From the NCBI GenBank assembly GCA_002869665.1, contig PKUG01000110.1:1-32631 (forward strand): a DNA stretch of 32,631 nt. Direction: 5' to 3'. A model generated the notes under the pieces. The model was not told the origin of the DNA, did no database searches, and saw nothing but the letters and a program-made list of their open reading frames with translations. Shown here one piece after another: positions 8,158 through 9,311 of this stretch. The position numbers and the translations under genes were made by a program. The number at the start of each line of letters is the position of its first letter. Within the stretch, counting starts at the first letter, position 1. This DNA comes from Desulfuromonas sp. (GTDB taxonomy: Bacteria > Desulfobacterota > Desulfuromonadia > Desulfuromonadales > Geopsychrobacteraceae).

Positions 8158-9240
8158 TTAAGGGGTTACAATAGCCATACGGTAAGGTCGCTGTTCGACC
8201 ATAAGCCGCCAGAGGACAATCGCTAATCGACGGGCAACGGCAACAATGGCTTTTTGAGCGATCCCTGTTCGAGAAACCAGTCGGTTGTACAGATCGGCGG
8301 CAGCTGCGTCCCTGGCTTTCCACATCCAGGCGGCTTCAATCAGCAAGCTTCGGAGGCGCTTTTGCCCCACGGGAACCAGGCGCCCCGAAGGTGTTTTGCC
8401 GCCACTGTGACGAACAACCGGCGCCAAACCGAGATAGCTGGCAACTTCCTCGGCACGCCTGAAACGGTCGGGCCGAAAAAGCTCCAGAGCAAAACTGGTT
8501 GCCACGGTCGAGCCGACACCCGGGACGGTTTGCAGATAAGCGACACTCTGGCAGGACTCTGATGACGTCACCATCTCTTTGAGTTGGGTTGCTACCGTGC
8601 ACAGCTCAGTCTGGTGAAAGGTCAGCTCGCGCATATAACTCTCCAGTGTCAATCTCGTTAGTGGTTCCAGATCAAGTTCCTGCAATGCCTTCTGAGCATC
8701 CTTGGTCCAGTTGGTCACGGCAACCGGTTCGCTGAGCCCGAGGAACAGAAGCATGCTCTTTATGCGTTGTTTACAACGGCGGACCGCATCGACAAGGTTA
8801 TGGCGACGCCGTATCAGGGACCGCCGCGCTTCTTCCTCTGGGGTCGGGACAGCGATAGGCTTAAGCATCCCTTTCGCTGCATAGTCGGCCAACTTGAGGC
8901 AATCGAGTCGGTCACATTTAGCTCCTGCTGTAACGGAGCGAGGAATGCGACTCGCTGCGGCAACAATGACTGGTATACCTGCCTGTTCAAGAGATCGGGC
9001 CAGTGAGAATCCGGTTGGCCCGGTCTCGTAGGCGACTGCCGCAACACAGATGCCGAGGTGTAGAATCTGTTCGGCAAACTTCTGTGGAGAGGCCGGAGCT
9101 ACCCATGTCGTCGATTGCCCATCGCTACGTTTAAGGGCGATGTAATAGCTGCGTTTATGGACATCAATCCCGATCCAAAAGGGTTGCTGCTCGAAACCAC
9201 TTACAAATGCTTGCAGACTTGATAAACTAAATTTCGCCAT
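8158..9240 (-). CDS. IS110/IS1111 family transposase
   Basis: IGIDVHKRSYYIALKR, VAYETGPTGFSLARSLEQAG, CDRLDCLKLADYAAKG, VPGVGSTVATSFALEL...YLGLAPVVRHSGGKTPSGRLVPVGQKRLRSLLIEAAW. Confidence 0.95.
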   Translation of the reverse strand: MAKFSLSSLQAFVSGFEQQPFWIGIDVHKRSYYIALKRSDGQSTTWVAPASPQKFAEQILHLGICVAAVAYETGPTGFSLARSLEQAGIPVIVAAASRIPRSVTAGAKCDRLDCLKLADYAAKGMLKPIAVPTPEEEARRSLIRRRHNLVDAVRRCKQRIKSMLLFLGLSEPVAVTNWTKDAQKALQELDLEPLTRLTLESYMRELTFHQTELCTVATQLKEMVTSSESCQSVAYLQTVPGVGSTVATSFALELFRPDRFRRAEEVASYLGLAPVVRHSGGKTPSGRLVPVGQKRLRSLLIEAAWMWKARDAAAADLYNRLVSRTGIAQKAIVAVARRLAIVLWRLMVEQRPYRMAIVTP

Positions 9241-9311
9241 GCTGGTCTCCTTGATCCTGTAGGTTGAAGTGTCCTCTTCAAAGCTACGATTTTATCAGGG
9301 GACCAGCATGG
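9237..9311 (-). promoter_or_regulatory. Long 5' hairpin sequestering transposase SD and start codon
   Basis: - strand CCATGCTGGTCCCCTGAT (9311-9294) pairs with ATCAAGGAGACCAGCATGG (9255-9237), which contains GGAG and ATG. A second hairpin is nested inside (9259-9287). Confidence 0.65.

Follow-up and report, generated by a model that had tools for sequence, protein, structure and literature searches.

The left end of an IS1111-group insertion sequence in Desulfuromonas sp. as a probable RNA lock on transposase translation

Bridge-RNA and seekRNA recombinases are under active development, and how the insertion sequences (ISs) that encode them are silenced while integrated is an open question, as is the role of the subterminal inverted repeats of the IS1111 group. 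An IS that bears on both questions lies on the - strand of a 32,631-nt stretch of Desulfuromonas sp. DNA (GenBank assembly GCA_002869665.1, contig PKUG01000110.1, positions 1 to 32,631), referred to here in its entirety as the window. The element, an IS1111-group member of the IS110 family, occupies positions ~7980-9313, and its transposase gene (tnp) runs from 9240 to 8158. A first-pass annotation made from the nucleotide sequence had proposed that the left end of the IS folds back over the transposase start site and thereby hides it in transcripts entering from outside. Our computational analysis indicates that the left end probably acts as an RNA lock on transposase translation, one that would be opened only after excision.

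RNAfold analysis of positions 9225-9325 returned a single long hairpin (-35.0 kcal/mol), and none of 200 dinucleotide shuffles was as stable (average -20.0 ± 3.2 kcal/mol; z = -4.7). On the - strand, an outer arm, CCATGCTGGTCCCCTGAT (9294-9311), pairs with an inner arm, ATCAAGGAGACCAGCATGG (9237-9255), that carries the Shine-Dalgarno (SD) sequence GGAG and the ATG start codon (9240-9238). The start codon lies within a terminal, 11-bp helix, which is followed by a one-base bulge, 2 bp, 4 bp more and a nested hairpin (GTAG/CTAC plus TTGAAG/CTTCAA; 9259-9287, - strand); the SD lies in the bulged continuation. The pairing of the two arms across 9237-9311 and the nested hairpin both lie where the first-pass annotation had placed them, and the arms were also found independently by a repeat search (9237-9251 and 9297-9311, 93% complementary). 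The further suggestion that the terminal inverted repeat itself is the lock held only in part. The outer arm does contain the left subterminal repeat, TGGTCCCCTG, but the two ends have nothing beyond this repeat in common, since CCATGC, the other part of the outer arm, is missing from the right end. In addition, the hairpin lies entirely within the IS, the end of which was placed about two bases further out, near 9313, on the basis of empty target sites. A role for the hairpin as a transcription terminator is unlikely, since no U run follows it, and an Rfam search of the region gave no match.

A lack of conservation of the arms in related copies had been named as one outcome that would refute this proposal; instead, the pairing was found to be kept, with compensatory changes, in 22 distinct left ends. 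Relatives were gathered from GTDB genomes and a plasmid; the viral contigs searched held none, the plasmids searched held one near relative (from Tritonibacter) and the phages searched gave distant matches only. In 21 of the left ends, belonging to elements with transposases ~46-65% identical to that of the window, the outer arm pairs with the start-codon arm and in most cases reads CCATGYYRGYC. Both sides of the helix have changed at positions 6 and 7 (T-A/C-G), 8 (G-C/A-T) and 10 (C-G/T-A/A-T), as seen in the arm pairs TGGTC/GACCA, TGGCC/GGCCA, TCGGC/GCCGA and TCAGC/GCTGA. The remaining left end, L046 (transposase 44% identical), has a 13-bp version, CATGTTGGCCTCC/GGAGGCCAACATG. When the alignment was analyzed by RNAalifold without an imposed structure, precisely the outer-arm/start-codon helix was returned. 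The paired fraction was 0.949, a value that none of 2000 column shuffles reached, with the reservation that such shuffles ignore relatedness. In all 17 non-redundant members the start codon is enclosed by a single long predicted hairpin (mean z -5.9), inside which a nested hairpin is present even though its sequence is unrelated, and on a protein tree the left arm shows a minimum of four changes at position 6 and two at position 8. In a distant relative, L027 (43% identical), no clear lock was found.

For the IS1111 family, promoters at the circle junction are reported in PMC11187229. A predicted -35 half of such a promoter, TTGACA (7994-7999, - strand), lies 14 nt before the right end of the window element, and a putative -10 half, TACCAT (9308-9313, - strand), forms its very left end and overlaps the outer arm. 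TTGAC occurs exactly 14 nt before the end in 18/18 distinct right-end sequences, including the complete Tritonibacter copy, and 20/22 left ends start with TACCAT. Joining of the ends in the excised circle, around a core of two or three As, gives TTGACA-16/17-TACCAT. With the usual spacing, a junction transcript would be expected to start near 9301, ~7 nt after the -10 box and inside the outer arm.

The consequences for translation were estimated as an opening cost, defined as the kcal/mol needed to free the start region from -14 to +6. For the window element the cost was 22.5 kcal/mol in a read-through transcript vs. 8.2 in the junction transcript, and the corresponding averages were 18.1 and 9.1; ordinary plasmid genes gave 7.0 kcal/mol. 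In a sweep of start points the cost dropped for starts between 9311 and 9302. The lower cost of the junction transcript is explained by the overlap of the -10 box with the outer arm, because transcription would then begin inside the arm. In 15 clade members the cost was above that obtained with shuffled upstream sequence (mean z 4.3), compared to a mean z of -0.06 for 85 control genes. As a separate observation, the IS copy L036 is decayed, with two in-frame TGA codons, and its locking arm has changed too (GGAGGATAAC for GGAGGCTAAC). The opening cost there is 9.4 kcal/mol instead of 16.6, and a lock may loosen after its transposase has been lost.

From these data the following mechanism is proposed. 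In the integrated state, where no promoter of its own is evident for tnp, a host transcript entering the IS would carry the entire left end, and the outer arm, partly the left subterminal repeat, would pair with the SD/start-codon arm ~55 nt downstream and exclude ribosomes. Excision as a circle would abut the ends and create the TTGACA-16/17-TACCAT promoter. The junction mRNA, starting near 9301, would lack CCAUGCUGG, so that the lock could not form, and transposase would then be made along with the 3′ guide RNA. The high opening cost in read-through, and a cost near that of ordinary genes in the junction transcript, would mean a closed start site in the integrated element and an open one in the circle. 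Read-through messages from neighboring genes are probably not translated. The analysis demonstrates the fold, its conservation and covariation, its excess over shuffles and control genes and the conserved promoter halves at the ends; the start point of the junction transcript, the loss of translation and a benefit to the element are inferred from sequence. Covariation, the excess opening cost relative to shuffles and ordinary genes and the predicted junction promoter together support the original idea of a start site hidden in read-through mRNA and free in transcripts that start inside the outer arm. A practical corollary is that expression driven by an external promoter may be poor in constructs that retain the native left end ahead of tnp.

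Several observations weigh against such a lock. The -10 box TACCAT matches only 4 of 6 consensus bases, and junction starts at 9304-9309 would relieve the lock only partly (14.7-16.4 kcal/mol). Few of the branches with compensatory changes are strongly supported on the protein tree, which leaves a formal test for correlated change without power. Mismatches in the helix are mostly C.A, which would be G-U pairs in an antisense RNA, and the antisense strand folds nearly as well as the sense strand (mean z -5.3 vs. -5.9), which blurs the case for an RNA structure. Lastly, L040 shows little lock (opening cost 7.7 kcal/mol), and the lock is weak in L026 and L036.

The near-equal folding of the two strands would also suit a DNA-level explanation, in which the inner arm would be a third subterminal repeat, bound by transposase or guide RNA for autorepression or as a decoy, with the complementarity of the arms a by-product. 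The inner arm and the left and right repeats are indeed alike, and position 7 varies in all three. Position 6, however, is outside the repeat common to the right end and yet covaries between the left and inner arms, and at position 8 in L033 and L043 the change of CGG to CAG in the left arm is matched by the inner arm but not by the right end, which still has CGG. In every member, moreover, the inner arm coincides exactly with the SD and ATG, and a nested hairpin persists despite unrelated sequences; we consider this explanation unlikely.

Less probable still is that the structure was selected on the opposite strand, where an antisense RNA over the start region, comparable to RNA-OUT of IS10 or Asr9 of ISPpu9, would regulate tnp. 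The G-U pairs that the C.A mismatches would become on that strand favor this explanation, and ISPpu9 has such a small RNA (PMC8450116). Nonetheless, folding on the antisense strand has no advantage in mean stability, and C.A mismatches can also result from a preference for A just before the start codon. As for chance, a short end containing the palindromic CATG could pair with the start region without any function; the CCATG/CATGG pairing is trivial, CATG being self-complementary, and 39 of 85 control genes have at least seven start-site bases paired upstream. This we regard as very improbable, because the opening costs differ from those of shuffles and control genes, the compensatory changes extend beyond CATG and the pairing persists across transposases down to 44% identity.

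A translation lock beyond the clade of the window element was sought in plasmid IS110/IS1111 elements. Across 22 such elements, opening the start site cost more than it did behind shuffled upstream sequence (mean z 1.6, 8 above 2), compared to a mean z of -0.06, with 3 above 2, for the 85 control genes (Mann-Whitney p ~8e-7); the control genes come from two plasmids only, several of the 22 elements are related to one another and some show no lock signal. When start sites with at least seven bases paired upstream were counted instead, the separation was moderate (20/24 elements vs. the 39/85 control genes), and the opening cost relative to shuffles is the better measure. Arms could be read by eye in IS4321 (GATGGTCACTCC/GGAGAACTATC), in Edwardsiella (ATGGTCGCCCC/GGAGCGGCCAT), Paracoccus (GGATGGCTCCC/GGGAGCCATCC) and Variovorax (GGCTCGTCTCC/GGAGACGAGCC) elements and in an ISSso6-type element (ATGCTGGCC/GGCCAGCAT). 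The lock is likely, but not established, to be general in IS110/IS1111, where its signal is weaker than in the window clade. A broader prospect is that across the RNA-guided IS110/IS1111 superfamily the left end is an RNA switch reporting the state of the DNA, locked when integrated and open only in the joined, excised circle, because -10 box, locking arm and part of the subterminal repeat would all share a handful of bases; we give this slightly less than an even chance. If it were true, translational control would be one function of the IS1111 subterminal repeats.

The product of tnp (8158-9240, - strand) is a 360-aa transposase of the IS110/IS1111 DEDD family, and the open reading frame (ORF) matched the Pfam domains DEDD_Tnp_IS110 (PF01548; E 1e-11) and Transposase_20 (PF02371; E 6e-21). 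The IS1111-group motif GL-P----S(t)G is present and reads GLAPVVRHSG. A repeat search identified 10-bp subterminal inverted repeats with a 100% match, CAGGGGACCA on the right (7986-7995, - strand) and the aforementioned repeat within the outer arm on the left (9305-9296, - strand); their length is within the 7-17 bp of the group. The left end is short (~73 nt before tnp) and the noncoding stretch 3′ of tnp is long (178 nt; 7980-8157, - strand), a layout that fits the IS1111 group. This 3′ noncoding region is kept in relatives and holds a probable seekRNA/bridge RNA, with a putative guide function inferred from PMC11187229; it contains GAATAAGAAAAGG (8053-8041), which looks like the right end plus target (CATAAG followed by AAAAGTGG). 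In the alignment of right ends, rows L041, L047 and L061 come from the wrong strand and are disregarded. By virtue of the subterminal repeats, the short left and long right ends and the conserved 3′ noncoding region with its GAATAAGAAAAGG, the element belongs, as far as sequence features can tell, to the IS1111 group as defined in PMC11187229 and PMC11208160. Its own genome holds no second copy, and in-genome copies could therefore not be compared. The sequence TGGCGAAATTTA was observed twice on the - strand, at the start of the transposase gene (9228-9239) and just before TTGACA in the right end (8000-8011); relatives do not keep this duplication.

The IS has inserted into a repetitive extragenic palindromic (REP)-like host repeat, part of which forms the left flank (9314-9380) and the remainder the right flank (7863-7979). 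This repeat family has ~20 matching places in the genome (contigs C202, C57, C170, C137 and others of G000), several of them empty target sites. In several other copies one flank runs directly into the other, the two sharing 2 bases, and because such copies represent empty sites, the IS ends were placed near 9313 and 7980. Just beyond the right end, the host flank contains CAGGGGACCAG (7948-7958), identical to 11 nt of the left end. The match is local to the window copy, since the empty copies differ there by a few bases, and it may be due to chance or recombination.

Of 30 distinct insertion sites whose right flank could be read, ~12 have the right end next to a strong intrinsic-terminator-like stem, at its A-tract (L025, L033, L036, L043, L045, L047, L051, L054, L057, L060, L061 and L062). 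The terminator script flagged 14 sites, two of them (L050 and L056) being weak stems that belong to a single element; strong stems lacking a clear T run, in L044, L058 and L063, went unflagged. In L033, L043, L047, L060, L061 and L062 a same-strand ORF, called by length only, ends 12-106 nt before the left end. Elements of this kind lie between a host gene and its terminator and thus in the path of host transcription, which would be a possible need for a lock. The window copy, in its REP-like repeat, is not at such a site. GAATAAGAAAAGG also fits a right end plus the A-tract and GG/GC of a terminator, and the literature searched yielded no description of IS110-family elements that target terminators by means of a guide RNA.

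Elsewhere in the window, two perfect 6-bp tandem repeats, (GATGCC)9.5 at 19298-19354 and (TCGGTA)6.5 at 22341-22379, flank gatB/gatA-like genes and are possibly phase-variable or spacer repeats.

In IS10 and IS50, fold-back protects against read-through transcripts: a stretch close to the end of the IS, carried solely by transcripts that enter from outside, base-pairs over the transposase start site and prevents its translation. The window element resembles them, by computation, in the pairing of its transposase start with an upstream arm in transcripts from outside; its own predicted junction transcript would lack that arm. It differs in that IS10 and IS50 have DDE transposases and a promoter of their own inside the integrated element, whereas the promoter of the window IS is expected only in the circle, and in that its locking arm overlaps the -10 box and the subterminal repeat. 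ISPpu9, an IS110-group element of P. putida, belongs to the same recombinase superfamily, also resides in REP sequences and likewise has a buried start region. Its tnp ribosome binding site is held in mRNA structure that, when weakened experimentally, raises translation, and its 5′ untranslated region of ~245 nt, with a mapped promoter of its own, is opened by the antisense RNA Asr9 (PMC8450116). Unlike in the window IS, this pairing does not involve the terminus or a subterminal repeat. IS200, with another transposase family, has separate stem-loops close to its end, which halt incoming transcripts and affect the expression of tnp (summarized in PMC3196728); that paper also notes, as data not shown, that hairpins are predicted within the first 50 bp of certain elements, including ISCaa14 of the IS110 family.

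ISEc11, IS4321 and other IS1111-family elements (PMC11187229 and PMC11208160) have the same transposase type and subterminal repeats as the window element; their 3′ noncoding guide RNA and their promoter formed by joining the ends in the circle have a putative and a predicted counterpart in it. The passages of these seekRNA/bridge RNA papers returned by keyword contain no translation lock in IS1111 elements, and the literature searched, which largely excludes subscription papers, yielded no lock that is formed by an end repeat and linked to a circle-junction promoter. A lock released by circularization would be a testable answer to the question of silencing and a partial answer to that of the subterminal repeats. 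Protection from read-through is itself known; what appears new in the window element is the convergence of subterminal repeat, predicted -10 box and locking arm on a single short end, through which synthesis of the transposase would depend on excision.
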